Shown one piece after another: positions 6,142 to 25,902 of a stretch of DNA of 57,618 nt. The notes beneath the pieces are model-generated. The model was given only the letters and a program-made list of their open reading frames with translations. It was not told where the DNA came from and searched no databases. The translations under genes and the position numbers were made by a program. This stretch comes from an uncultured Lamprocystis sp. (GTDB lineage Bacteria; Pseudomonadota; Gammaproteobacteria; Chromatiales; Chromatiaceae): NCBI RefSeq assembly GCF_903933125.1, contig NZ_CAIZIZ010000148.1, forward strand, positions 1-57,618, in the 5' to 3' direction. Each line of letters opens with the position of its first letter. Within the stretch, counting starts at the first letter, position 1.

Positions 6142-7452
6142 TCAGCGGGCGGCCACCGCGCTCTCGGCGACGCCGATCAAGACCGGAGACCGCAACTCCT
6201 CCGGCAGATTGGTGAACTTCTCAGCCAGGGCCGGCCACAGCAGGTTGTAGTACAGCTCACCGCGCACCAACACCACCCCCTTGGCCGGAATCTGATAGCT
6301 CAACTCGCGCACCTCATGCGGCTTGAGGCGGGTGTCGTCACCGGCCTTGGTCGCGGTCGGGGGGGGCGCCGGCATGCCCTTATCGTCGACCATGTTGTAG
6401 GAGAAATAGGCTTTGGGATCACCTTTGGATGGATGGCCTTCGGCGTTCTGCCACACCAGGTTCCCGGCCGCGTCATAGGCGGCAAGCTTCAGGTACAGAT
6501 TGCGAAACGGCGCGCCGGTGGGCATGGAATGCGGCTGCAGGTTCTGCAACCGGACCTTGGTCTTGACCTTGCCGTCCGCCGCATCGGTGGTCAGGGTGAA
6601 CACGACACTGCGCTTGAGCATGCCGGCGTTGTGACCGCCGCCCATGGTGTGGTCCGAGATGCCGCCCGCGACCGGCATATGGCAGGATTGGCAAACGACT
6701 TTCGAGGCACCCTCCAGATACTCGTTGCCGGTCTGACAGAGCGGGACGCCCTGGGGATTGTTGCGCTGGTCGTGGCAGCCCATGCACGCATCGGAGGTCT
6801 TGAATTGAACGGCGTTGGCCTCCAGCGGCAGGGCCGGTACCGGTTGACCGCGGAACTCGACCGGCTCACCCAGGTGCGGGTTGGGTTTTTGGTCGGTACC
6901 GTCACCGACGGCTCCGCCGAACAGGTCGCCGCCGGCACTGAGTTTTTGCAGCCCGCGCGGGAAGCCGGCGGGTCCTTGAAGTGTATCGCTCAACGTGTAG
7001 GCCGCGAGCCCCAGACGCAGTTTGCCGTCCTCGCCTTTGACGCCCTTGAAGCCCGCGATGGTATGGCAGGCCACACAGTTCACCCCCTCGCTATAGGCCG
7101 GCATGGCATCGAGCTTGGTGGTCTTGTCGCGGGCGGCATTGGGAGCATGACAGGAGAGACAGACCGGAAAGGTCTTCGTCTTCTGGTGAACCTGCCCTTC
7201 GGCCTGGGGATCGCCAACTTCCTGGCGGTAAAAAGTCCCGTGGATCGGGTCGCTGAGGGCTGTACTCTTGGCATGCATTGATCCCTGCCACTGGCGGTAT
7301 ATCTCCTGATGGCAATCCTTGCAGACCTCCGCCGAGACCTGGTGGATCGGGGTTTGCTGGTCGGCAGCGGACAGTGCGGCAGGGCCGCCGATGCAGGCCA
7401 GGGCCAGCAGCAGCGTCCGGGCCAGATCGCGATTGGTACCGAAAATACGCAT
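6142..7452 (-). CDS. Periplasmic multiheme cytochrome c (five CXXCH), cytochrome c554-like
   Basis: CKDCH, CLSCH, CVACH, CMGCH, CQSCH; signal peptide MRIFGTNRDLARTLLLALACIGGPAALSA (start at 7452 preferred over 7470). Confidence 0.8.
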   Translation of the reverse strand: MRIFGTNRDLARTLLLALACIGGPAALSAADQQTPIHQVSAEVCKDCHQEIYRQWQGSMHAKSTALSDPIHGTFYRQEVGDPQAEGQVHQKTKTFPVCLSCHAPNAARDKTTKLDAMPAYSEGVNCVACHTIAGFKGVKGEDGKLRLGLAAYTLSDTLQGPAGFPRGLQKLSAGGDLFGGAVGDGTDQKPNPHLGEPVEFRGQPVPALPLEANAVQFKTSDACMGCHDQRNNPQGVPLCQTGNEYLEGASKVVCQSCHMPVAGGISDHTMGGGHNAGMLKRSVVFTLTTDAADGKVKTKVRLQNLQPHSMPTGAPFRNLYLKLAAYDAAGNLVWQNAEGHPSKGDPKAYFSYNMVDDKGMPAPPPTATKAGDDTRLKPHEVRELSYQIPAKGVVLVRGELYYNLLWPALAEKFTNLPEELRSPVLIGVAESAVAAR

Positions 7453-10029: not shown

Positions 10030-10358
10030 GTTACATCTCCATGTGAATCTGTCTTATCTAATATTAACTGGGTTTTCGGAACTTTCCAGAGGGTACCATC
10101 GGTGTGTCAACGTACGGACGCCCCCGCCCTCCGCCAGTAGACTGTCGATTAGGGCTGCGGTACGGCAGCGAAGGCAAAGTGCGACACATTGACGTGCAAC
10201 CGGCGATCAAGGCGCGGTGGATGCTCAAGTGATCGCTGCTGGCGCCATCCTTGATTCTCGAATTGTATAGCGCAGCTGCGGCGCCGTGCGCCACGCCCTA
10301 CCCACGCCGGAGCGAATCTGGCGCCCCAATTCCACAGTCGCAAGAGGCTCGACCCCTA

Positions 10359-10751
10359 ATGTACGGATTTTCCACGACCCTGCATACCCCCTTCGACCAG
10401 GCCGTTACCCGGGTCACCGAGGCCCTGAAAAGCGAGGGTTTCGGCGTCCTGACCGACATCGATATCCAGGCCACACTCAAGGCCAAGCTGGGCGTCGAGC
10501 GGCGACCCTACCGCATCCTCGGCGCCTGCAATCCACCCCTGGCCAACCGGGCCTTAGAGGCGGAACCCGACATCGGGTTGCTGTTGCCGTGCAACGTGAT
10601 TGTGCGGGAAGCGGCGGACGGCAGCATCGTCGTCGCCGTTATGGATCCGCAAGCGGTCTTGCAACTCGTTGACAAGCCGGAGATCGCCGAACTCGCGTCG
10701 GAGGTGCGCGGGCAGTTGGAGCGGGTGCGTGACGTTCTCATAGTCGTTTGA
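10359..10751 (+). CDS. DUF302-family protein
   Basis: [45 protein letters not shown]; start ATG 10359 within ORF 10251-10751. Confidence 0.85.
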
Positions 10752-10788
10752 GGCAATGGCTACCACCCACCTTTGAGGAGATGGCATC

Positions 10789-11361
10789 ATGACCAACACA
10801 AGCACTGCCGTTGTCCAGCACGGTGACCTTGCGACCCGCCCGGTCGCGCGCGTCGCTAGCCCCGAGCGGGTGCGGGTCTGGGACCCGTTCTTGCGCTTTT
10901 TCCACTGGAGCCTGGCCGTTGCCGTGCTGATCGCCTTCCTGACCGGAGACGCGATCGAGGGGCTGCACGTCTTCGTCGGCTATGTCGTCATGGGGCTGAT
11001 TGCCGCCCGCCTGGTGTGGGGGGTGATCGGGCCGAAGCACGCCCGGTGGTGGGACTTCGTGCGCGGACCCCGCGTCATCAAGGCCTATCTCGGGGACGTC
11101 CTGCGCGGGCACCCGGCCCGCTACTTGGGCCATAACCCGACCGGCGGGGCCATGGCCGTCGCCCTCATCGCGGGACTTGTTCTGACGACACTCTCTGGAC
11201 TGGCCGCACAGAGCGTCCATGGCTTGAAGGAGGTCCACGAGCTGATCGCCTACGCCACCCTGTGCCTGGTCCCCCTGCACCTGCTCGGGGTGGCGGTCGC
11301 GAGCTTCCAGCACCGAGAGAATCTGGTGCGTGCTATGATCAATGGCGATAAACGCGCCTGA
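10789..11361 (+). CDS. Cytochrome b561-like / Ni,Fe-hydrogenase-type diheme cytochrome b
   Basis: VRVWDPFLRFFHWSLAVAVLIAFLTGD; four TM segments with conserved His; RBS GAGGAG upstream. Confidence 0.85.
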   Translation: MTNTSTAVVQHGDLATRPVARVASPERVRVWDPFLRFFHWSLAVAVLIAFLTGDAIEGLHVFVGYVVMGLIAARLVWGVIGPKHARWWDFVRGPRVIKAYLGDVLRGHPARYLGHNPTGGAMAVALIAGLVLTTLSGLAAQSVHGLKEVHELIAYATLCLVPLHLLGVAVASFQHRENLVRAMINGDKRA

Positions 11362-11531
11362 GTCTCTTCCTGATAATAGGCTGACAACCCCGCTCAGCAG
11401 GCGCTCAGGCGCGGTGTTTTAGCCTGGGCTTTGGTTGCGCTGTCCAAGCGCTGTCTTGGATTTGCACGAAATCGTCCCGTAACCGAGTCCACTATTATTC
11501 GCGGTCACACACCGCGACAAGGAGTTTCGTG

Positions 11532-12259
11532 ATGAAGCTTTCTACAACAGCCGCGTCCGCCTTGTTCCTGACCTCCGCCGTGCCCTGGCCGGTACCTTCG
11601 ACAACGCCGGGGTCGCGCTGGCCGGTTCGGCGCCGGTCGCGCGCATCTTGAACTGCACCCTGGCGAAGACCTCATTCAAGGGCGCCAACGAGGGCTGGTT
11701 TAGCAGTGCTGAGAAATCCGTGGAGGCCACCTGCCTGGCTGGGGACACCGCGATCAACTTCTCTGCCAGCGCCGACAGTTGGCCGAAGCTGCTGCAACTG
11801 GCTGGTCAGCCGGTGGTCGTGAAGTTGGCCCAGAACAAAGGAGAGGTCAAGGAGGCCAAGTCCGATTGGGTCATGGTCGACATCGCATCCAAAGTCAGCA
11901 TCACGACAAACCCGAATAAGATCTGCGGCGACGACAAGGCGCCGAAGGAGTTCAAAGCAATCTGGTCACACGGCTATCGCGTTGGTGAGGCAGTGGACGT
12001 CTGGCAAGGCGGTACACGCGCGAAGGATGCCCAGTGGAACGGTCCGCAGTCAGGGCGCAAGGATGACTGGTACGCGGACGTGCGCATGTCGCGCAGTCGC
12101 AACGTGCAATGGGCGCCGGATGGATCGGTGCGCCTCGGCAGCAGTTGCGCGGCAGCGCACGAGACGATCGCCGCTGCCGCAAAACCGCTGATTTTTGTCT
12201 ATGACCAGGGCGCGGAGGATCCGGAGTACGCCGTCATGGAGGTCTATGCGGTGGAGTGA
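11532..12259 (+). pseudogene. Secreted hypothetical protein with probable 1-nt frameshift in the signal peptide region
   Basis: MKLSTTAASALFLTSAV starts at ATG 11532; the mature part ALAGTFDNAGVALAGSAPVARILNCTLAK... continues in another frame (11532 to in-frame codon at 11648 is 116 nt). Confidence 0.55.
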
Positions 12260-12547
12260 TCCCGGAGCCCCGGCGCGGCCCATTTTCCCAGGGTTTCCGG
12301 TGTGACGCACCCAGGGGAATGCCACTTCGCCGCCGTGTTTGCTTTGGCTCAAGTTCATCGACCAGTACCGGAGTCAACTTCTCCTGGTTTTGATCGGTGC
12401 GGCGGAGTTGGCCGCAATGATGGTCAAGGCCGGTCCCCCAGCCGCCGTGCAGTTGGATTTCCTATCCCATGCTGATGGTGCGGGGGGTAATGGGTCAACG
12501 GGAGCAATGGTTTACAGCGCGGCCTTTCCTCCTCGCAATGGTGACTG

Positions 12548-13090
12548 TCAGAATTCTGCTGAACCCCGGCAGTCCGGAGCGTGCGTGTCACGCGCATCCG
12601 AATCGACCAAGAACCGCCCGGCCCGGAGAAAATTGCGGCCGACCAGGATCGGGTATGAAAATGCCTGACGTTCGGCCAACGTCATGCGATCGGTGATCGT
12701 CTTGCCGGCGAGACAGATCTCCATCATGACCACCGGCCGCAGCGTTGTACCGGCTGCGCCTTTGTTCTTGATCCTGATCCAATCGACGATATCACGTTGC
12801 ACGACGACGGTCCCGCCATCGCCGTCGGCAATGGAAAATACGACGCGTTCGGGTGTTCCTGGCGTATCGCTTCCGCTGATTCTCATAATAGTGGCATCAA
12901 TCGCGCCGAGGCTGGCGCCGGTATCCATGCGCGCCGACTGTTCTATACCCAGTGCGGTGAGGCGCACCTTCTCTGCCCACCCGATGACTGCCGGCATAGA
13001 CGCTGGCGATGCCTCACACGGGCCATCTTCGCTCCCTGCTTGTGCAAGCGCCACGAATGCTGCCAGCGTCGCCAAGGCGACAGAATGCAA
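12548..13090 (-). CDS. Retropepsin-like aspartic protease family (ATP-dependent zinc protease/PF05618-like), secreted
   Basis: MDTGASLGAIDA active-site motif; MTLAERQAFSYPILVGRNFLRAGRFLVD; the N-terminal ~70 aa of ORF 12548-13306 are probably not translated. Confidence 0.7.
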   Translation of the reverse strand: MHSVALATLAAFVALAQAGSEDGPCEASPASMPAVIGWAEKVRLTALGIEQSARMDTGASLGAIDATIMRISGSDTPGTPERVVFSIADGDGGTVVVQRDIVDWIRIKNKGAAGTTLRPVVMMEICLAGKTITDRMTLAERQAFSYPILVGRNFLRAGRFLVDSDARDTHAPDCRGSAEF

Positions 13091-13333
13091 TACCCGTACC
13101 AACCGACGATAACAGCACGGGCAACGACGACCGCGCGCCGACAGATAGCCAGCGGACGGAGTGACTCCGCGGCTGAACGTTTGCTGACAGGGTCTCTCAG
13201 GTTGCCGCGAACTGCTCAGTGCTAGGCTGTACCCAAGTCCTGATCGATGCGGCCGCGACTCCTGCTCTGTAGCGTCCGGATCACGACTGCGCGGTCGATC
13301 GTTCACGCCGGCTGACTCGTAGTGTGAGGTTCA

Positions 13334-13984
13334 ATGAGCGCAGATGCACAGATCGCGGTCGGGCGGATGCCGGAGCCGGGCGTGGTCAATGAACGACCGG
13401 CTGCCGCGGCGGCGCCTGACTGGCCGAAGAATGACGCCGGTCTCACGGTCGCCAGCCGGATCACGGCGGCCCGGCTGGTGATCGCATTGATCAGCTTTGT
13501 CTTCATGACCTTGAACTGGTGGCAGACGGCGTTCGTGCTGATATTCGTCGCGACGATCCTGGATATCGTCGATGGTCAGGCGGCGCGCCGCCTGCAACAG
13601 GTGAGCAAGCAAGGCGTTTTCCTGGATATTATGGTCGATAAGATCGTCATTATATCCACGTTTCTCTTCATCGGGGTAGGCATCGACATGCTGTTTTTTT
13701 ATCTCGGCATATTGATGCTGATACGGGAATACATGATGGATACCATGAGGGCCTTGGCCGCCTCTAACAGTCTTGTCATAGCGGCCGACAAGCTGAGCAA
13801 GATCAAGGGGATATTATTCATGACCGCAATGCTCATGATGATTGGTACCCATGCCTTCGTGGCCGACGCGCGGCCGGATGCGGTGCTGCGGGCGGCCGGC
13901 ACCGTCCTGGCGGTCACGGGCCTGCTCCTGGCTTACGTGTCCTTGGCGCGCTTCCTGATGCGGCATCGCAAAGCATTGGCGTAA
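13334..13984 (+). CDS. CDP-alcohol phosphatidyltransferase family protein
   Basis: Full motif DG-x2-AR-x8-G-x3-D-x3-D: DGQAARRLQQVSKQGVFLDIMVD; multiple TM. Confidence 0.9.
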   Translation: MSADAQIAVGRMPEPGVVNERPAAAAAPDWPKNDAGLTVASRITAARLVIALISFVFMTLNWWQTAFVLIFVATILDIVDGQAARRLQQVSKQGVFLDIMVDKIVIISTFLFIGVGIDMLFFYLGILMLIREYMMDTMRALAASNSLVIAADKLSKIKGILFMTAMLMMIGTHAFVADARPDAVLRAAGTVLAVTGLLLAYVSLARFLMRHRKALA

Positions 13985-14140
13985 CAGCGCGCCCCGCCCA
14001 TTTCGCGGACCTCGCTGAATGCGCATGATCCCTTCTTGGACCTGCTGTCGAGTTGATTACACAAGGATCAAGCGAGATTGCGGTCCGCCTTGAGTGCGCC
14101 GACCGGGCCAGTAACCAGCCATATGAGAGGTGACGCGACC

Positions 14141-15283
14141 ATGAATCTCCGTTCCCTAACCTCGGCGCCGCGGTCGGGTACGCAGCTCGACCAGGACGTC
14201 ATGCTCGACGATGCGACCGCGGACCGACTGCTCGAACTTGGCATCAGCCGACGGCGCTTTCTGTCCTATTGCGCTGGGCTCGCATCCCTGATGGCCTTGC
14301 CGCAGTCCATGGTGCCCGGCCTGGCCGCTGCGGCGACCGCGCGCACCAGACCGTCCGTGGTTTACCTGTCGTTTCAGGAATGCACCGGCTGTCTGGAATC
14401 CATGGTGAATTCTTTCCCCTTTCAGGGCGGTGGAACCATCGAGAATTTGATTCTCAACCTGGTCTCCCTGGACTTCCAGCAAACCCTGATGGCCGCCTCC
14501 GGCGATCAGGCCGAACAACAGCTGCGCAGTGCCACGAACCGATCGGGCTATGTGCTGCTCATCGACGGGTCGATCCCGGCGCAGGGGAACCGCGGCTACT
14601 TTGTCAGCGGTGAAAAAAACGGGGTGGTGCGCTTCCGGGAGGCGGCCGAAAGCGCGCGCCTGATCATCGCCGCGGGCACCTGTGCCAGCTTCGGCGGACT
14701 ACCGAAGGCGGATCCCAACCCAACCGGCGCGGTGTCGGTCGGCGCCCTGCTGCGACAACTGGGAATAAAGAAGGATCTCATCAACGTTCCCGGCTGCCCG
14801 CCGATCCCGGAGGTATTGACCGGAGTCATCCTGTACTACCTGGCCCGCGGCAAACCGGCACTCGACGCGCTCAATCGGCCAACGATGTTTTATGGCCGCA
14901 GCGTGCATGAAGGGTGTTATCGCGAAGAATCGTTCGAGGACGGACCCCATGCCCGGTCATTCGACGATGCGCATGCCCGGGCGGGCGGCTGTCTGATCAA
15001 GCTCGGCTGCAAAGGGCCGGTCACCCATAGCGCCTGTGCCAGGATCGGCTGGAACCAGGGCACCAGCTTTCCCATGATGTCGGGACACGGGTGTATTGGC
15101 TGTACCGAGCCGGATTTCTGGGATCGCGTCAATACCGGAGGCACCAAGGGCTTTTATGTACCCTTGGGCCACAACAGCAGCGCGACGGACCCCATCAACG
15201 AAGGACCGGAGCAAAGGGGAAGAACGGAGGGCACCTGGGGCCATGGCCATGAGGATGATGATGAGGACGACGATGACGACTGA
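14141..15283 (+). CDS. [NiFe] hydrogenase small subunit (Tat signal SRRRFL, soluble-looking, Asp-rich C-terminus)
   Basis: SRRRFLSYCAG Tat motif; ECTGCLE, GTCASFGG, GCPPIPE, HEGC, GHGCIGC ligand motifs; C-terminus GHGHEDDDEDDDDD; likely start ATG ~14141 (MNLRSLTSAP). Confidence 0.92.
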   Translation: MNLRSLTSAPRSGTQLDQDVMLDDATADRLLELGISRRRFLSYCAGLASLMALPQSMVPGLAAAATARTRPSVVYLSFQECTGCLESMVNSFPFQGGGTIENLILNLVSLDFQQTLMAASGDQAEQQLRSATNRSGYVLLIDGSIPAQGNRGYFVSGEKNGVVRFREAAESARLIIAAGTCASFGGLPKADPNPTGAVSVGALLRQLGIKKDLINVPGCPPIPEVLTGVILYYLARGKPALDALNRPTMFYGRSVHEGCYREESFEDGPHARSFDDAHARAGGCLIKLGCKGPVTHSACARIGWNQGTSFPMMSGHGCIGCTEPDFWDRVNTGGTKGFYVPLGHNSSATDPINEGPEQRGRTEGTWGHGHEDDDEDDDDD

Positions 15284-15352
15284 GACCCCTGCCGCGCGCC
15301 CGCCGCATTCGTACACCCGATCCACTCGTCCGGCTAACCCAGGAGACCGACC

Positions 15353-17224
15353 ATGGCAACCGCGCCCAATGTAATTATCGATCCTGTAACCCGTATCGAG
15401 GGCCACTTGCGTATCCAGGCCTTTGCCGAGCCTGACGGACGCGGCGGCGGCGTGATCCGCCGGCCGGGGCTATGTGCGGCGACGATGGTGCGGGGCGTCG
15501 AGCGCATCCTGCGGGGCCGCGATCCGCGGGATGCCTGGGCCTTCACCCAGCGGATCTGCGGGGTCTGCACCGTGGTCCATGGTGTCACGTCGGTGCGTGC
15601 CGTAGAGCATGCCATCGGCATCAAGGTGCCGCGCAATGCCGACTACATCCGCAACATGATGATCGGCGCCCAATACGTCCATGACCACGTCATGCATTTC
15701 TACCACCTGCACGCCCTGGACTGGGTCGACGTCACGAGCGCCTTGCAGGCAAACCCGGCCGCGACCGCCCGGCTGGCCAAGGACAACAACCCCGGTTTCA
15801 AGGCCGACAGCGGTGCACTGCCGAACGCCGCCTATTTCCAAGGGGTCCTGAACCGGCTCACCAGCGCGGCGGGCGACGGCACGCAGTTGGGACTGTTCGG
15901 AAACGGTTATTGGGGTCACCCCGCCTATCATCTCACCGCGGAAGAGAATCTGCTGCTGCTCTCCCATTACATCGAGGCTCTGGCCTGGGCGCGGGACGTG
16001 GTGAAACTGCATGCGGTTTTCGGCGGCAAGGACCCCCACCCCAATCTGGTGGTCGGCGGGATGCCCTGCACCCTGAGCAGCAACCCCGGGCGCGTCAGCG
16101 AAGACGCCGGCGGGACCTCGCTCAATAACGCCGGGTTTGCGGTCATCCGCTCCGCGATTGCCAGGATGCAGGCCTTTGTCGACCAGGTCTACCTGCCGGA
16201 CGTGCTGCTGCTGGCAAAGCGGTATCCGGAGTGGGCCGGTTACGGTGCGACGGCGGGGAACTTTCTGTGTTATGGGGAGTTTCCAGAACCCACGCTGGTG
16301 AAGACCGAGTTCGCTGACGGCGCCGGCGATTATCCGGCGGGCTACCTCTTTCCACGCGGGGTGATCTGGGCCGGCAACCGCGATCGGCTGGCCACCTTCG
16401 ATCCGGCCCTGGTCACCGAGAACGTCGCGCATGCCTGGTATCGCGGATCGGCGACGGGGGTACACCCGTCCGTCGGTACGACCGAACTGAACTATACCGG
16501 ACCCGCGGCCGAGGGCGGATCGGGCTATATGCTTCAGGAGCGTGACAAATACTCCTGGATCAAGTCGCCCCGTTACAATGGTCAACCCATGGAGGTCGGC
16601 CCGCTCGCGCACATCCTGACGATGCATGCGCGGGGCACTCTGCCGACCGACGCCGTGGTGCGCGGCTACGTCCGGAAGTACTGGACCAACCCCGCATCCG
16701 CGGGGGGAGTGGGGTTAGCGTTCGCGCAGCTCAATTCGACCCTGGGCCGGATCTTTTGCCGGATGCTCGAGACGAAGATCATTGCTGATCAGATGACTGT
16801 CTGGTACCAGGGCTATTACAAAGGCCGGGCTGGTCCCTATTGGAATCCCAAGACGTTTGCGCGCTTGCGGGAGCCTGCATCCTGGCCCAAGGTCGTCGGT
16901 GTCGGATTCACGGAGGCCCCACGCGGGGCCCTGGGGCACTGGGTGACGATCGATCCGGGGTCCGGCAAGATCGAGAACTATCAATGCGTCGTCGCCAGCC
17001 AATGGAATGCCGGGCCGCGTGATGCAGGCGCGATCGAAGGCCCCTACGAGCGCGCTCTGGTCGGCTTGACGCTGGCCGATGTCGCGCGGCCGCTGGAGGT
17101 GTTGCGCACGATCCATAGTTTCGATCCGTGCATCGGGTGCGCGGTCCATATCGCCGACCCGGACGGGCAGCCGCTGGTACAAGTCGAAGTGAGGCACGCG
17201 GCCAGATCGGGTTCACTGGTATGA
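15353..17224 (+). CDS. [NiFe] hydrogenase large subunit
   Basis: RICGVC (L1) and DPCIGCAVH (L2) followed by a C-terminal extension IADPDGQPLVQVEVRHAARSGSLV. Confidence 0.95.
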   Translation: MATAPNVIIDPVTRIEGHLRIQAFAEPDGRGGGVIRRPGLCAATMVRGVERILRGRDPRDAWAFTQRICGVCTVVHGVTSVRAVEHAIGIKVPRNADYIRNMMIGAQYVHDHVMHFYHLHALDWVDVTSALQANPAATARLAKDNNPGFKADSGALPNAAYFQGVLNRLTSAAGDGTQLGLFGNGYWGHPAYHLTAEENLLLLSHYIEALAWARDVVKLHAVFGGKDPHPNLVVGGMPCTLSSNPGRVSEDAGGTSLNNAGFAVIRSAIARMQAFVDQVYLPDVLLLAKRYPEWAGYGATAGNFLCYGEFPEPTLVKTEFADGAGDYPAGYLFPRGVIWAGNRDRLATFDPALVTENVAHAWYRGSATGVHPSVGTTELNYTGPAAEGGSGYMLQERDKYSWIKSPRYNGQPMEVGPLAHILTMHARGTLPTDAVVRGYVRKYWTNPASAGGVGLAFAQLNSTLGRIFCRMLETKIIADQMTVWYQGYYKGRAGPYWNPKTFARLREPASWPKVVGVGFTEAPRGALGHWVTIDPGSGKIENYQCVVASQWNAGPRDAGAIEGPYERALVGLTLADVARPLEVLRTIHSFDPCIGCAVHIADPDGQPLVQVEVRHAARSGSLV

Positions 17225-17316
17225 CGCCTCCCTGCTACACCTGCTACGGTTGCCATGCACTCCCGCTCGGCAATCTGTGCGGAGCACCGGGAGTAAGCCG
17301 GCGGCTGACCCGAAGG

Positions 17317-17964: not shown

Positions 17965-19305
17965 TCAAATGCCGTAAGCCAGGCGCAACAGGCGCAGGGG
18001 ATGCTGCTGTTGCCCGTCCCGGCCAAGCGCATGGGCGATGTGCGCACCAGCCATCGGACAATCGCTGCCGAAATGGTCGGCGGCCGCCTTGTCCACCCGG
18101 GTTGCAACGGGTTTTACGATCTTCATCGCGGCCGCGTAGCTCTCCTTCTTCACCGCATAGGTTCCGTCGTGCCCGGAGCAGCGCTCGATGATCTCCACGG
18201 TCGTCTCTGGTATCAGGGCCAGCACCTCGCGGGTTTTCTGTCCGATGTTCTGCACCCGTTGATGGCAGGATGCCTGATAGACAACGCTCCCCAAGGGGTG
18301 CGTGAAGTCCAGATTCAGCTTGCCGTGCTTATGCCGGAGCATCAGATACTCGAAGGGATCATACATGGCCTCCTTGACCGCCTGGACGTCCGGGTCATCC
18401 GGGAACATGAGCGGGAGTTCCTGTTTGAACATGAGCACACAGGATGGCACCATCGCCACGATGTCCCAACCCGCATCCACCAGCCCTTTGAGCACCGGGA
18501 TGTTGAACTCCTTGGCGGCCTTGACCGCTTCTAGGTCACCTAATTCCAGCTTGGGCATACCGCAACAGCGCTCCTGCCGCGCCAGGGTGACCGGGATGCC
18601 GTTGTGTTCGAAGACCGCGATCAGATCAGCGTTCACCCCTGGCTCGTTATAGTTGCCGTAACAGGTGACAAACAGCGCCACCTTGCCGGTGGTCGCGCCC
18701 GCCGCTTCGCCCGTCGCGTTGCTCCCGATGCGTGTCCGTTCCGCTTTCCGCAGCGTTTCGCTATGGTACTCCGGCACTCGCGCCTCCTGGTGGACTTGCA
18801 ACACTGCCTCCAGCGCCTTGCGCGCCAGTGGATTCCTGTTGGCCGCGTTCACCAAACCACTCACCACCGGGATTCCGGCGAGCGTCCCCACCCGGTCCGT
18901 ACTGGTCAGCACACGGTCGCGGAATTTCACATCACCCTGCTTGAACTTGTACGCCTTGGCTCGTAACATCAAATGAGGAAAATCCAGGTTCCACTCGTGC
19001 GGCGGTACGTAGGGGCACTTGGTCATGTAGCAGAGATCGCAGAGATAACAGTGGTCCACCACCTGCCAGTAATCCTGCTTCGCGACACCGTCGACCTCCT
19101 GCGACGCTGAGGAATCGACCAGATCGAACAGGGTAGGAAATGATTGACAGAGACTCACGCAGCGTCGACATCCGTGACAGATGTCAAAGATCCGCTCCAG
19201 TTCATGGAAAAGAATGGATTCGTCGTAAAAGGTCGGATTTTGCCAGTCGAGGGCGTGGCGAGTCGGGGCTTCAAGACTACCCTCGCGAACGCTGGTGCTG
19301 CTCAT
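17965..19305 (-). CDS. Heterodisulfide reductase-related (Fe-S)-binding protein (two ferredoxin CxxCxxC clusters + cysteine-rich CCG domains)
   Basis: CHGCRRCVSLCQSFP, CYLCDLCYMTKCPYVPPHEW, QERCCGMPKLELGD, SCHQRVQNIGQKTREVL. Confidence 0.88.
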   Translation of the reverse strand: MSSTSVREGSLEAPTRHALDWQNPTFYDESILFHELERIFDICHGCRRCVSLCQSFPTLFDLVDSSASQEVDGVAKQDYWQVVDHCYLCDLCYMTKCPYVPPHEWNLDFPHLMLRAKAYKFKQGDVKFRDRVLTSTDRVGTLAGIPVVSGLVNAANRNPLARKALEAVLQVHQEARVPEYHSETLRKAERTRIGSNATGEAAGATTGKVALFVTCYGNYNEPGVNADLIAVFEHNGIPVTLARQERCCGMPKLELGDLEAVKAAKEFNIPVLKGLVDAGWDIVAMVPSCVLMFKQELPLMFPDDPDVQAVKEAMYDPFEYLMLRHKHGKLNLDFTHPLGSVVYQASCHQRVQNIGQKTREVLALIPETTVEIIERCSGHDGTYAVKKESYAAAMKIVKPVATRVDKAAADHFGSDCPMAGAHIAHALGRDGQQQHPLRLLRLAYGI

Positions 19306-19775
19306 ATCGCTACCCTTGGATGTGCTGGTTTGCCGGAGATGTGCGAAGTGCTTAGGCCGCTATGATCACTTCGTCCTGCTGCTGCTCACTAAGTCTGGCT
19401 TGTCCGAGGTCGATCCGCAAAATGGATTTTACAATCAGCCTGATAGGTGATGACCATTGCGGTTGCCGGGGTCCAGCAGTCGTACGGAATCCCAGTTAAC
19501 CATGGCATTGAAAGGGTTTAGTAAGCCGCTGTTGTCGAATGCCCAACCACGCACCCGCGACGACTCAAGCCCGTTGGCGGATCCAAAATCAAGAACTGTC
19601 AGCTTTTTTTACATCGGGGGCTGGCTGAACGACTGAGTAGGTGACGCTCGAGATACGTGATGCATTATTTATCAGAGAGATATAATAATCGGCGCGTTTT
19701 TTGCATGGATAAAGCGCCGAAACGACCAGCGCCGACATTGGCGCGCCGTCGAGACTGATAATTTAGGTATGTAAA

Positions 19776-20600
19776 ATGAAATATCTAGCGGCGGCTTGGT
19801 GGATGTTTGTCTTGGGCGCTGGCCTCAGCCCCGCGGTGGTGCAAGCGATTCAATATACCAGCCTCACTGGCATGGTCATCGCCCACGACGGGATCCTTAA
19901 TGCGAACAAAAAGGCAGATTTTTCTAATCTCGGTGCAGGGGCCTTCGATGCCATTCAGCGTATCGAGGGTGCGATGGTGGGCACTGCCTTCGACGCCTCA
20001 CAAGTCATCGTCGTCGAGCGAGCAGGGGGGCCGTTGAGCGCGCCGTCCAACTATGCAACCCTGGGGACCCCTCTGACGAGTCAGGGGGATCCGCTTCAAC
20101 TCAGCCAGGCCGGAAGTTTCCAGGTGCTGGATGTCCGCATCCCTTTTCCTCAATACGAGTATCTGATTGGTGGTCGATTGACGTCCGGCACTCCGCCGCA
20201 GACAGCAATAACCGGAACGCTCTCGCTTTTGTTCGACTATTTCCAGTCGACGCTCGATCTGGTCGTTTTCGGTATCGACGTGGCATCCCCGACGAATAAT
20301 CCGAATTCCAGGCTCTTCGTCGATTTCTTTGAGGCCGATGGATCGGTATTGGACCGCCTCACGATCAGCCTGGATCGAGCGACGCCACAGGATCCGAACT
20401 TTCAAGACTTCTGGTTCGAAACCCTTGGCGGAGATGCAAGAATCAAAGGCATTACGCTGTCATCAAGCGACACTTCGGGCGTCGTATTCGGTAATATCTC
20501 GTTTTTTGTCCCGTCTCCGTCAGCCATTGCGCTGCTGACCCCGGGGATCCTGTTCTTGGCATTCAAGCGTCGTCGTTTTACTACTTATCACGAGGCTTGA
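19776..20600 (+). CDS. Secreted protein with PEP-CTERM-like sorting signal
   Basis: N-terminal signal peptide; C-terminal VPSPSAIALLTPGILFLAFKRRR (VPxP-TM-basic cluster). Confidence 0.75.
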   Translation: MKYLAAAWWMFVLGAGLSPAVVQAIQYTSLTGMVIAHDGILNANKKADFSNLGAGAFDAIQRIEGAMVGTAFDASQVIVVERAGGPLSAPSNYATLGTPLTSQGDPLQLSQAGSFQVLDVRIPFPQYEYLIGGRLTSGTPPQTAITGTLSLLFDYFQSTLDLVVFGIDVASPTNNPNSRLFVDFFEADGSVLDRLTISLDRATPQDPNFQDFWFETLGGDARIKGITLSSSDTSGVVFGNISFFVPSPSAIALLTPGILFLAFKRRRFTTYHEA

Positions 20601-20621
20601 GGAAACGGCGTCGCTTCAACA

Positions 20622-20638
20622 ATACCGGGAATCGGTAT
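20622..20638. terminator. Possible bidirectional hairpin between convergent genes
   Basis: ATACCG-GGAAT-CGGTAT perfect 6-bp stem between the PEP-CTERM gene and the lasso precursor; no U-tract. Confidence 0.3.
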
Positions 20639-20660
20639 CGAGGAATGCATCGACCTTGCT

Positions 20661-20837
20661 TTAGGGGGCGGGCGATGGGTCATTCATCACGAAGGTGAAG
20701 TCGGGGGTATTCCCTAAGCCTTGGGATTTGGTTAGCCCTCTGAGTGAGCCAAGGAACTGTAGTTTCGGCACCGCATAGGTCTCGCGATCGTCTTGAGGAT
20801 TGCGCCGCATCGTTTCACATGGCTCTGTCGTGTTCAT
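20661..20837 (-). CDS. Lasso peptide precursor (58 aa), not in the supplied ORF track
   Basis: Hand translation MNTTEPCETMRRNPQDDRETYAVPKLQFLGSLRGLTKSQGLGNTPDFTFVMNDPSPAP*; RBS AAAGAGG before ATG; leader YxxPxL..LG....LT with Thr at -2; core SQGLGNTPD/FTFVMNDPSPAP; 15 nt downstream of the cyclase gene. Confidence 0.88.
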   Translation of the reverse strand: MNTTEPCETMRRNPQDDRETYAVPKLQFLGSLRGLTKSQGLGNTPDFTFVMNDPSPAP

Positions 20838-20852
20838 GAGTAACCTCTTTGT

Positions 20853-22730
20853 CTACCCGAGTGAGCGACTGTTTAACCAGCGTGCCAGGCACGCTGCATA
20901 AATGATACTGAAGCGATTGCCTGTTTCCAGATTCTCGTCGGCTCTCGGCAGCATTTTTGCCAATTGGCGGCTGCTTTCCCCGTTCGTGCGGATTCGGTCG
21001 AACTCGCGAACCAGGGCGGAGCCATGCAAGGCCCAGCGATGGTCGGCGGCTTGATGGTAATAAACCTTATCACGCAACCATAGTACGGACTGCGGCAGTT
21101 TTCCACGGAACGCCTGCCGTACCAAGTGCTTGTTATAGCCGTCACGACACCAAAGATGCGCTGGAGAAGCCAGCATGAAATTCGTGATTCTGAGATCAAA
21201 CAATGGCGCCTGGACTTTCACCCCGCGCGCGCGCCCACTGGACCGATAAGCGTCCAACCCTACCCAGGTACTGTTGTGCCGAAGCCTCAACAGCATCGAT
21301 CTGGGATAGGGATCCAGTTCCCCGATGCAAGCATCGCTAACGCACTGCTCGGCAATCCGCCGGACCAAGCCCTTATCGCGCATCAGCCATGGCGGCAGAT
21401 TCCCGGTGACCATGCGTTGGCACTCGACACGCCGAGTCAACCGGCCTGGCAAGAACGTCTTCAATGCCGGTTTCAATACCCGGTTTTTCAGCAGTCCAGC
21501 AAGACTGACGCCGCGGCGACGACTGATCTCGAGCAACTCCAGAAAGACGCTCATGTCTCGCTCAGCTAACCGTGCCAGAACGGCGAAGCCCGGATTGCCT
21601 GCTGTATGCTCATCACCGCCGAGCCCGGTCAGTAACACCGAGCAGCCGAGTTTGATCGCGTGTTCTATGGCATGCTCCTGTGCCATAAGTAAAAAGGTCC
21701 CGGGCGATTCCGGACGGGGACGGTAACCGTCCCACGGGGACAGTGTTTGGAATCGCGCCCCATCCTCCCCGTGCCAAGACGCCAAGGCCAGTTGGTCCCG
21801 TATCTCGGTAATCGCCCTGCTCTCGTCGCAGCCGGGGTAGTCTGGGTAAAGGTAAGATAACGCCGCGACGCGTCTCGATTTCGCCGCTCCCAACGCGACG
21901 GCGGTCGCGGTGACGGTACTTGAATCCAAGCCGCCGCTGAGTTCGCAAAGCACTGGTTCATTATTTCTTCCCAGTCTATCAGCAACGGCGTACGTGAGCA
22001 ACTCTCGATAGTGTTCCGCATACTCATCCAGGCTGCGGTAGCGAATCGGTCTCAGTGCCGTCGGTGACCACCACCGCCCGAAGTGCACCGCCTTTGCGGT
22101 CTTACTGAAATACTGGCCGCAGGCCACGACGCGAATTCGCTCGAACAACGACAACTCACGATGCGGAGAGGCCATCATCCAGAAGGCAACAGCAACCTCG
22201 CACCAGTGACTGGAGAGCTCCGGTAAAGCAACGAGACAACCCTCTTCGGACGCAATGACGCATGATCCGGACGCGAGTTCCGCGAGAAACAGACGACGTG
22301 CACCCGTGGCGTCGGATGCCCCGTAGATTGTGTTCGAACGTCGGTCGACGACTAAGAAGCAGAAATCTCCCAGTAAATGCAAGCAGCAATCGGTGCCCCA
22401 ACGGAGGTAGGCGGCCAACAGCAGATCCTCGTCCGTCGCTGTTGGCCGACGCTCGTATGGATACGCCAGCGCATGCATGAGATCCTCCCGGCCGTCCAGC
22501 CGTACATCGGCAGCCATGACGAAGCGCCCAAAGTTGTCTTCCAGTGGACACTGGACTTTGGAGGGGGCTGCCGGTAAAAAGGTATCAAAGCCTCCAACCC
22601 CGATAGACTTGCCGATCCATCTGCGGCGGTTGCTGGTTCCGAGATACGCGACAGGATCGAGCAGTGTGTCTAGCTCGCTCGGCAAGACAATGCGTGGCGT
22701 TTGATGAACAATAGCGCAGAATGTACCCAT
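20853..22730 (-). CDS. Asparagine synthetase B-like lasso peptide cyclase (C protein)
   Basis: ELSGGLDSSTVTATA PP-loop; N-terminus MGTFCAIVHQ lacks Cys at position 2 of glutaminase-type enzymes; context. Confidence 0.85.
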   Translation of the reverse strand: MGTFCAIVHQTPRIVLPSELDTLLDPVAYLGTSNRRRWIGKSIGVGGFDTFLPAAPSKVQCPLEDNFGRFVMAADVRLDGREDLMHALAYPYERRPTATDEDLLLAAYLRWGTDCCLHLLGDFCFLVVDRRSNTIYGASDATGARRLFLAELASGSCVIASEEGCLVALPELSSHWCEVAVAFWMMASPHRELSLFERIRVVACGQYFSKTAKAVHFGRWWSPTALRPIRYRSLDEYAEHYRELLTYAVADRLGRNNEPVLCELSGGLDSSTVTATAVALGAAKSRRVAALSYLYPDYPGCDESRAITEIRDQLALASWHGEDGARFQTLSPWDGYRPRPESPGTFLLMAQEHAIEHAIKLGCSVLLTGLGGDEHTAGNPGFAVLARLAERDMSVFLELLEISRRRGVSLAGLLKNRVLKPALKTFLPGRLTRRVECQRMVTGNLPPWLMRDKGLVRRIAEQCVSDACIGELDPYPRSMLLRLRHNSTWVGLDAYRSSGRARGVKVQAPLFDLRITNFMLASPAHLWCRDGYNKHLVRQAFRGKLPQSVLWLRDKVYYHQAADHRWALHGSALVREFDRIRTNGESSRQLAKMLPRADENLETGNRFSIIYAACLARWLNSRSLG

Positions 22731-23757
22731 GAAAGCTCTAGTACGAGATCAAATCGTCGAGTCTGACCACGGTGCTGCGCACCAGCTAGACTCGACCCCG
22801 TCAAATACTCAGCTTACACGCATTTTCGGATTGAGTGTAGATGCGGATGTCGCCCTCACCGAGCTTCCCCTCGTGGACGCCGGGCGGGCCGACCTCACAG
22901 TGCGTTCGATCGCGACAAGTCCAGAACCGATCACTTGGACTCGACAATGGTATGCCGCAGACGGCCGCTTGCAACTAGGGGCCGCAACATCCAGCCAGGG
23001 TTACATACTGCGATTCCCAGGCATCGGCGATTTCGTGATTTCGGAAAGGCCCGGCATGATTTCGTACCGACGCGATCCAACTGCGGCTGCTGCATCCTTC
23101 AGGCACGCCCTGTTGGATCAAGTGATCCCGCGCGCCCTCGCCCAATCTGGGCGACTTGTCTTACATGCGAGTGCGGTCTGCGGTCCCACTGGCGCTTTGT
23201 GTCTCGCCGGCTCGCCTCGTCAGGGAAAATCCACGTTGGCCGCGGCACTTCACCATGCGGGATTGGCTTCTTGCGCAGATGATGCGGTTTTAGTCGACCT
23301 GGCGCCCGAAGGTCCGGTCTGCTGGCCGGCGTATCCAGGCGTCCGCGTCTGTACCGACTCCGCAGCATATTTTGCCCGGACGGGGCCCCCCGTTGTGGTC
23401 CCCACTCAGTCCTGTGAAAAGCTTCGTTTGCTGTATGACGCTCCAGTGCGAACGGCAGTTCCCGAGCCTATCCCATTATGCGGAATTCTCATCCTCGATC
23501 GCCGGGAGCCATCGAATGCCAATACGCTCGTTGCTATACGACTTACCGACCTTTCCGCGAGTCAGGTGGCCGCCTGCGTGATGACGCATATGTTCAAACT
23601 CGATATCAAAGATCGGCTTACTTTGTCAGGAATGCTGGCCCAAGTCGCCGCGCTCGCCAATGCGTTGCCGGTCCTTAGACTTGAATATCCATCGGGTTAC
23701 GAGCATCTGCCCGTGGTCTGCGAGCACATTCGGAGCTTCCTGGCCAGTTGCAACTAA
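22729..23757 (+). CDS. HPr kinase/phosphorylase-like protein of lasso clusters
   Basis: Walker A CLAGSPRQGKSTLAAALHHAGL followed by CADDAVLVD; length and layout as HprK-like lasso-associated proteins. Confidence 0.8.
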   Translation: MKALVRDQIVESDHGAAHQLDSTPSNTQLTRIFGLSVDADVALTELPLVDAGRADLTVRSIATSPEPITWTRQWYAADGRLQLGAATSSQGYILRFPGIGDFVISERPGMISYRRDPTAAAASFRHALLDQVIPRALAQSGRLVLHASAVCGPTGALCLAGSPRQGKSTLAAALHHAGLASCADDAVLVDLAPEGPVCWPAYPGVRVCTDSAAYFARTGPPVVVPTQSCEKLRLLYDAPVRTAVPEPIPLCGILILDRREPSNANTLVAIRLTDLSASQVAACVMTHMFKLDIKDRLTLSGMLAQVAALANALPVLRLEYPSGYEHLPVVCEHIRSFLASCN

Positions 23758-24243
23758 GCGGTGCCGCGTCATCTTGCCGCGCTGTACTGATTGATCCGGC
23801 CGATTGGGCCTGAGAGCAACAAACTGGCTCTGGTGCGCGGCAGTTTGACCCAGCACTGCCCCGTCGAGTTCGACCCAAGCATGCGCTTCCACACCGCTCG
23901 CAGCCATGCGTACGCCAAAGTGGATATGCGCAACTTGGCCTCGTCGTGCCAGCAGCAGCCAGAGGGAAAGCGCCTGCGGCAGGCAAGTGAACTGATCCGG
24001 CAAGCCGCGCGCCGCCGTCTGGACCGCCCAAGTCAACCGGGCGGCATCGTCCGGCGTCCGAGTAGTCGCTGGGTCGGTACGTAAGGGCCTCACCAATCGG
24101 CTCAACCATTGTTGACTGCGCACAAACCCGAACGCGCTCAGCATCATAGTCGAGACGACCAAGTATCCCGACGCCTCAATCACAAGCCGGCGGCGATCAG
24201 GAGGAAGCGCGACAAACCGTCGCAGCCTGCCGATGGGTCGCAT
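23626..24243 (-). CDS. Lasso peptide biosynthesis B2 protein (transglutaminase-like leader peptidase)
   Basis: FTCLPQALSLWLLLARRGQVAHIHFGVRM...VEAHAWVELDGAVLG Cys/His motif; C-terminal ~60 aa extension is suspect. Confidence 0.8.
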   Translation of the reverse strand: MRPIGRLRRFVALPPDRRRLVIEASGYLVVSTMMLSAFGFVRSQQWLSRLVRPLRTDPATTRTPDDAARLTWAVQTAARGLPDQFTCLPQALSLWLLLARRGQVAHIHFGVRMAASGVEAHAWVELDGAVLGQTAAHQSQFVALRPNRPDQSVQRGKMTRHRLVATGQEAPNVLADHGQMLVTRWIFKSKDRQRIGERGDLGQHS

Positions 24244-24245
24244 GG

Positions 24246-24527
24246 CTAAACCTGTTGAACCAACCCAGCCTGCAGCAGGTCGGCGACCAATGCCGCGAGG
24301 TCATCCTGAATCCGCTCCGGATCCGCACGGAACTCTTTGGCGATCAGTGCGGGGATTGCGCCGATTGATACGTCGGCCGCGAGTAATTCCCACATCCTGG
24401 CGCCGACCGCATTCAATCCAAAATAGCGCTCGCTGTGTAGATCAAGCAAGACCGCCTCCGCGTCGACCCTTTGATAGAGTACATCCGCAGAGATGCGTAT
24501 CCGGCTGGTCGAGGAACCTGGCATCAT
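24246..24527 (-). CDS. PqqD-like RRE protein (lasso B1)
   Basis: ADVLYQRVDAEAVLLDLHSERYFGLNAVGARMWELLA; 94 aa, immediately upstream of B2. Confidence 0.85.
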   Translation of the reverse strand: MMPGSSTSRIRISADVLYQRVDAEAVLLDLHSERYFGLNAVGARMWELLAADVSIGAIPALIAKEFRADPERIQDDLAALVADLLQAGLVQQV

Positions 24528-24626
24528 CTTTGGTAGCCCTGATGTAAAACGAGCCGCGAACGCGGAAATAGGAGTTCTGTTTCGATGGCGGGGCCGGCTC
24601 TTTTGAGATTACAGTATAGCCTTCGT

Positions 24627-24696
24627 ACCTGATATCCGGACAGGCCCTTGGTGTAGGGGCGGGATTGAAACCAGCCCCTACGTCCGGTTATCAGGT
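24627..24696. repeat. Nested palindrome: outer ACCTGATATCCGGAC/GTCCGGTTATCAGGT, inner GTAGGGGC...GCCCCTAC
   Basis: Outer arms match 14/15; inner 8/8; inner belongs to the GTAGGGGCGGGTTT..AAACCCGCCCCTAC family. Confidence 0.8.
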
Positions 24697-24825
24697 CCGG
24701 CGACTATATGTTGCCTGTACCTAAAAAGTGGCGGATTCCGAGGCCTAACCGCGAAATCCAGGCAAGCAACATCAGGGTGCCAGTGCGCCGCGGCCACCAC
24801 GCTCCCGCTATTCGCAACCGATCTT

Positions 24826-25902
24826 ATGTGTCGAGAGGCAATCGTGATCGTCTGGCCGCCAACTATCGCACTGGCACCTTTGGTGCGCCCACAGGAAGCA
24901 CTACCTTGGCTTTCCGCGTCTGACGCACTGACGACCACCTTTGGACAGATGCTCGCCGCTCAAGGGCTGTCCTCATTGTGGTATGAGTTGGTTACCAGAA
25001 ATGCGCTTCAAGGAACGGGGGGTTTAGGCGATATCTTAAGAAATCGCCGCCTTGCCGCCGCCGCGTCTTATCGGTTGCAGCACCGCACCGTAATCCGTGT
25101 CGGCACCTGCCTGAACCAGGAGGATATTCCCTGCGCTCTGATCAAGGGCGCCGCCGTGAGGGAGAAACTCTATGTGGATCCCTCGGTTCGCCCCGCGGAT
25201 GATATCGACATCGTCGTAGCGGCGGAACATCGCGACGCCGCGATTCGGGCGCTCTGCGGTTACGGAATGACCTTTTCCGCAAATCGCGACAACGTGAGCC
25301 ACGCCGCTACGTTGCTCGATGGGCCTGTCGCTGTAGATCTTCACTGGCATGTGTTGCGCCCCGGACGCAGCCGGTTCGATCTGGTGCCGACCCTGCTGGA
25401 GACTGTTGGACAGGAGCGCGGTCTGCCTCTTCTCGGCGATGATGCGAACCTGCTCGTGCTACTGGTTCATCCAGCTTTCGCCAAGTATGTCAACGGGTGT
25501 ACCGCCAAATTGATTCGGGTAATCGATCTTGATCGCATGCTGCGTACGACCCAACCGGACTGGGATTGGATTCTACCCTTAATCGGTGCCGCGGGTCTGC
25601 GCACCGCCGCTTGGGCCGTGCTGCACTGGCAGCGCTCGCTGCTGGACACACCCGTTGATCCGACCGTGCTGCGCTACCTGGAACCGGGCAGGCTGCAGCG
25701 CCGCTACCTGACCTCCTGGATCGACCATCGACTGACCGCCCGGCTTAATGTCGTGCCCGGTCTGGTCCAGTGGGCTTTTACCCTGGCGCTGCATGAGCGG
25801 CCAGGGGATGCGCTGCGCTTCATCTTACAACGAGCAAAGGCGCGCTTGGAGGCCGGGAGCATCCTGAAACACCTGCAACAGATCGGCCGGACGCCAGGCT
25901 GA
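24826..25902 (+). CDS. Nucleotidyltransferase family protein (PF14907-like), lasso-cluster associated
   Basis: CALIKGAAVREKLYVDPSVRPADDIDIVVAAEHRDAAIRAL; VAVDLHWHVLRPG; start may be downstream of 24826. Confidence 0.8.
   Translation: MCREAIVIVWPPTIALAPLVRPQEALPWLSASDALTTTFGQMLAAQGLSSLWYELVTRNALQGTGGLGDILRNRRLAAAASYRLQHRTVIRVGTCLNQEDIPCALIKGAAVREKLYVDPSVRPADDIDIVVAAEHRDAAIRALCGYGMTFSANRDNVSHAATLLDGPVAVDLHWHVLRPGRSRFDLVPTLLETVGQERGLPLLGDDANLLVLLVHPAFAKYVNGCTAKLIRVIDLDRMLRTTQPDWDWILPLIGAAGLRTAAWAVLHWQRSLLDTPVDPTVLRYLEPGRLQRRYLTSWIDHRLTARLNVVPGLVQWAFTLALHERPGDALRFILQRAKARLEAGSILKHLQQIGRTPG

Follow-up and report, generated by a model that had tools for sequence, protein, structure and literature searches.

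The window, by which we mean the whole stretch of 57,618 nt analysed here, carries a short minus-strand gene, A, among genes for the maturation and tailoring of a lasso peptide. Judging from the sequence, we consider it very probable that 20661-20837 on the minus strand is the lasso precursor gene of a kinase/nucleotidyltransferase-type cluster in a purple sulfur bacterium of the Thiodictyon/Lamprocystis group. The locus comprises the following features.

19298..25335, no strand: putatively exchangeable lasso island of about 6 kb, with no DNA alignment to sister species and flanks 88-93% identical
19776..20600, plus strand: companion gene for a secreted PEP-CTERM-like protein of 274 aa, with a signal peptide and a C-terminal VPSP-TM-KRRR
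20661..20837, minus strand: A, lasso precursor of 58 aa (leader 1-37, predicted core 38-58)
20844..20850, minus strand: AAAGAGG, ribosome-binding-site-like, 6 nt 5' of the A start codon at 20837
20853..22730, minus strand: C, asparagine-synthetase-like lasso cyclase, SGGLDSS at residue 265
22729..23757, plus strand: K, HprK-like kinase (H146, K167, D184, D185; P-loop at 161), start uncertain
23626..24243, minus strand: B2, leader peptidase (Cys87, His121, Asp127), over the NF033537 cut-off at 4.5e-21
24246..24527, minus strand: B1, PqqD-like RRE and predicted leader binder, matching PqqD and, in PDB, TbiB1 (2.6e-8)
24826..25902, plus strand: N, PF14907 nucleotidyltransferase with a putative PsmN/BsfN-like role

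The minus strand from 20837 to 20661 encodes a 58-codon ORF exactly as an earlier note on this DNA had translated it, and the AAAGAGG that the note placed about 8 nt before the ATG is present, at the shorter spacing given above. A lies downstream of C, with 15 nt between the C stop codon (20853) and its own ATG (20837). Its leader carries Tyr(-17), Pro(-14), Leu(-12) and Thr(-2) in the exact lasso register, and its predicted core, SQGLGNTPDFTFVMNDPSPAP (21 aa), has a predicted S1-D9 ring, with Asp9 falling within positions 7-9, where an Asp or Glu is expected for the macrolactam. The core ends in PSPAP, with Pro last and Ser18 fourth from the end. Ser at position 1 had been called unusual, a view that we rejected because serine is among the experimentally observed first core residues of lasso peptides (PMC12670498). 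The 7.1-Mb assembly holds a single copy of the A ORF and one lasso B2 gene.

None of the curated lasso-precursor models matched A over its cut-off. The absence of a lasso-leader HMM hit, which the earlier note had said would count against the reading, is very nearly the case: the NCBIfam lasso_cyano match (E=0.004) falls under the curated cut-off, and NF033528 scored 17.1 bits where its cut-off is 33. These models describe subgroups only, and a score below the cut-off is not a defining failure; because the matches stay under it, the assignment of A as a lasso precursor rests on gene context and conservation. The best match in a PDB search with A, the MS-271 precursor, was non-significant (E=1.2), and promoter and terminator scans stayed at chance level.

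The catalytic residues listed above are intact in C, B2 and K. C matches Asn_synthase, with lass_lactam_cya as its best NCBIfam model (4e-59, under its cut-off), and is without a Cys at position 2, so it probably has no glutaminase activity. The four K residues are invariant in 4 aligned K proteins and correspond to the His-Lys-Asp-Asp set reported to be catalytic in lasso kinases (PMC9266682). K matches HprK models weakly and in part (2.3e-8) and has no sequence match in PDB; its AlphaFold model (pLDDT 71, pTM 0.74) has its structural matches in the expected superfamily, that of PEP carboxykinases and HprK. The divergent start codons of C and K share two bases (CATG, 22728-22731). This overlap is absent in the related locus L015, whose K probably begins at a distance of 64 bp, and the start assigned to K in the window may accordingly be misplaced. 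At its 3' end, K overlaps the convergent B2 frame by 132 bp (23626-23757), and K/B2 overlaps of 75-161 bp occur in the loci L048 and L050.

Adjacent C, B2 and B1 genes, the exact leader register and the acidic residue at position 9 bear out the reading of A as a lasso precursor that the earlier note had proposed, and with K and N also as neighbours, the cluster is therefore of the paeninodin/pseudomycoidin type. The paeninodin cluster of Paenibacillus dendritiformis (padeA/K/B1/B2/C/D) likewise combines A, B1, B2 and C with a kinase of the HprK type whose substrate is the precursor (PMC8498205, PMC9266682). The paeninodin kinase is directed at a Ser at the C-terminus, and that cluster includes a D transporter, whereas the core of A ends in Pro and the window has no adjacent D; it has N and the PEP-CTERM-like gene. 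The likeness to paeninodin suggested beforehand finds stronger support in the kinase/nucleotidyltransferase gene set than in the letters TPD, on which it had been founded. The pseudomycoidin cluster of Bacillus pseudomycoides (psm, with PsmN) has the same K and N tailoring pair; its product is a lasso peptide phosphorylated and then hexosylated, and the window cluster differs from it in gene order, strands, position of the presumed substrate Ser, the companion gene and the lack of an adjacent D. The bsf cluster of Bradymonas sediminis shares A, B1, B2, C, K and N, YxxPxL at -17 to -12 and a Gram-negative host with the window, but has Ile(-2), Gly1, Asp8 and an ABC transporter where the window has Thr(-2), Ser1, Asp9 and no adjacent D (PMC10368454). 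No ABC transporter (D) gene was found among the ORFs neighbouring the cluster in the window, so the cluster leaves export unaccounted for; D is present in three related loci (L019-L021). A adds a new member to the established class of lasso precursors, and the cluster, as read from its genes, is a variant with K plus N, no adjacent transporter, a near-C-terminal Ser, a PEP-CTERM-like partner and cassette exchange.

Searches with cyclase and kinase across the order returned many lasso loci, and a scan of genome contigs using the cyclase alone returned no match. The nucleotidyltransferase alignment led to same-genus loci in Lamprocystis purpurea DSM 4197, Chromatiaceae bacterium ppb02 and an uncultured Thiodictyon, which places the window in this Chromatiaceae group. 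The Thiodictyon cluster (L015, identical to L127) is the closest, with the gene order of the window and, at the same place, an ORF 41% identical to A (E=2e-8), which argues that the A ORF is more than chance. A comparison of their 17 leader codons gives 10 differences in 17 third positions and 10 in 34 first and second positions, 3 of the latter 10 being synonymous. The core of the L015 precursor (7172-7339) is TLGAGPKQDIYEAVNDSQ; it has Thr at position 1, and the example first core residues in PMC12670498 are Gly, Cys, Ser and Ala, with Thr not among them. Precursors from 15 Chromatiaceae lasso loci share one 17-residue register with Tyr(-17) and Thr(-2), and all 15 have Asp or Glu at core position 8 or 9. 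Pro stands at -14 in 14 of the 15 and at -15 in that of Lamprocystis purpurea DSM 4197, whose predicted core is GGGLTGDDIGAPFGTRPG. A is thus conserved beside orthologous C genes, a check that had been named beforehand and that both L015/L127 and the 15-precursor register bear out.

In the pathway that we propose, B1 would bind the Y(-17)/P(-14)/L(-12) residues of the leader, K would phosphorylate a core serine, B2 would cleave after Lys(-1), the second residue in a Thr(-2)-Lys(-1) pair, and C would close the S1-D9 amide around the tail; a sugar or nucleotide may then be placed on the phosphate by N. Ser18 as the phosphosite is a guess, made because all three precursors with a 9-residue ring (window, L015, L018) have a Ser that is C-terminal or nearly so.

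Two alternatives concern the precursor and its modification. If A were a chance frame in the spacer after C, with the real precursor elsewhere, the shortness of the ORF and the lack of a curated HMM over its cut-off would fit. Yet the leader motif (searched as Y..P.[LIVMF]..[LIVMFYA]G....[LIVMF]T) has a single match in the six frames of the window and none in 60 first-order Markov simulations of it, the syntenic counterpart shows an excess of third-position differences, and the exact register recurs in 15 loci; we regard a chance frame as exceedingly improbable. With A retained as the precursor and the cluster intact, K and N could instead act on a hydroxyl of the ring or N terminus (S1, T7) rather than on Ser18, a serious contender that we place slightly below an even chance. 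BsfK phosphorylates Ser3, within the ring (PMC10368454), a Ser or Thr stands at core (ring) position 5 in 10 of 12 relatives with an 8-residue ring, and a Ser is the last residue in 1 of 15 precursors; the substrate rule of a C-terminal Ser does not hold for A itself, whose core ends in Pro, and BsfA is an exception showing that this rule does not apply universally. The three 9-ring precursors, however, are without a position-5 hydroxyl and yet keep their Ser near or at the C-terminus. Both kinds of kinase target have precedent, the C-terminal Ser in paeninodin and the ring Ser in BsfA (Ser3, PMC10368454).

The allelic nature of the region around these genes, like the companion gene at 19776-20600, had been missed by the earlier note. 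Compared with the sister-species loci L048 and L049, the window is 88-89% identical to the left of about 19,290 and to the right of about 25,340, and nothing aligns between. The right edge is located within N, whose 5' part is allele-specific and whose 3' part is flank-like, and the edges fall at similar places in the pairs L015/L050 and L048/L049. In the flank, PqiA is 93-96% identical among the window, L048 and L049 and 94% between L015 and L050, compared with 69% between the window and L015 and 73% between L049 and L050. The cyclases instead are 52% identical between the window and L015 and 58% between L049 and L050, with 28-39% in other pairs; near sisters of the window, with flanks at 93-94%, have cyclases only 28-29% identical to its own. 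Kinase identities (43% and 47%) agree with the cyclase grouping. Two genomes of the same genus (G035, G188) have PqiA, but in the sequence available it is not accompanied by an N gene.

The companion gene lies within this island, convergent with A. Its product was unmatched by any PEP-CTERM model in a PF07589/TIGR02595 search, and its homologues in L050 and L019 pass TIGR02595; like PEP-CTERM/exosortase surface proteins, it combines a signal peptide with a C-terminal P-TM-RRR tail, and the genome of the window has an exosortase gene. The AlphaFold model (pLDDT 39) is too poor for use. Searched against 204 genomes of the order, a companion profile returned nine strong homologues from three genera, each of them next to a lasso cluster, and two weak partial hits; five of the nine strong homologues had seeded the profile, and those in L050, L019, L020 and L021 were newly found. 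The position of the companion relative to the lasso genes varies among loci. Companion identity tracks cyclase identity across the nine loci (Mantel r=0.96, p=0.0002), and within the genus it correlates with that of the cyclase (r=0.95) and not of the flank (-0.27). A further locus, L017, has another PEP-CTERM protein inside its lasso cluster, and in two other lasso loci, L022 (1038-2472) and L025 (4318-5711), the cyclase gene adjoins genes for another pair of proteins, predicted to be secreted, that both loci have in common. We rejected the idea that the family is exclusive to lasso clusters, which holds in the sampled order and fails in the phylum. Long matches in the wider phylum occur without visible lasso genes (none nearby in L116; L114 and L115 on short contigs), which means that the family is not tied to lasso clusters throughout; the majority of the weak hits there are confined to the C-terminal tail.

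The simplest reading of the flank, cyclase and kinase comparisons is that whole lasso alleles, together with the linked companion gene, have been exchanged between lineages or species at one site. Bacteriocin-like genes can evolve fast, and the island could in principle have diverged in place; the relationships of C and K, however, cross those of the flanking PqiA, and the alignment stops sharply at similar edges in within-group pairs, which makes divergence in place very unlikely. Given exchange, the companion might be a passive hitch-hiker, since physical linkage alone would give its co-segregation with C within the genus, and full-length homologues outside the order were observed without a lasso cluster (L116, with L114 and L115 on short contigs). 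We find this rather unlikely: the companion accompanies lasso clusters in three genera (g1, g38, g45), at differing relative positions, the 204 genomes hold no other strong homologue, and PF07589 hits number only 3-26 per genome of 3-8 Mb. That the linkage recurs in three genera speaks for a functional tie between companion and lasso genes, without proving one. Our leading guess for the companion protein is a partner at the cell surface, anchored by exosortase and matched with the lasso allele of its own island, that would serve as receptor, anchor or immunity factor. Tentatively, the locus could be a polymorphic lasso-peptide/surface-partner system, in which each allele pairs a lasso peptide with a matched exosortase-anchored protein, alleles pass between Chromatiaceae species at a single chromosomal site, with diversifying selection acting on them, and the arrangement stands in for the usual transporter-based export and immunity; in this full form we hold it to be possible, if doubtful.

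Our literature search found no lasso peptide from purple sulfur bacteria and no work linking a lasso peptide with PEP-CTERM or exosortase; lasso clusters do occur in cultured strains, for example in Lamprocystis purpurea DSM 4197. Should the PEP-CTERM-like protein prove to be a genuine partner, it would represent a new class of accessory gene for lasso clusters and could explain clusters that have no transporter. Swapping of whole clusters at one site between species suggests selection for new specificities, and an ecological role (warfare, signalling or kin recognition) is therefore testable by comparing alleles.

Elsewhere in the window, a 7.2-kb stretch (10067-17295) that includes hydrogenase-type genes (14078-17224) is absent from the sister species L048 and L049, in both of which the edges of the missing stretch abut.
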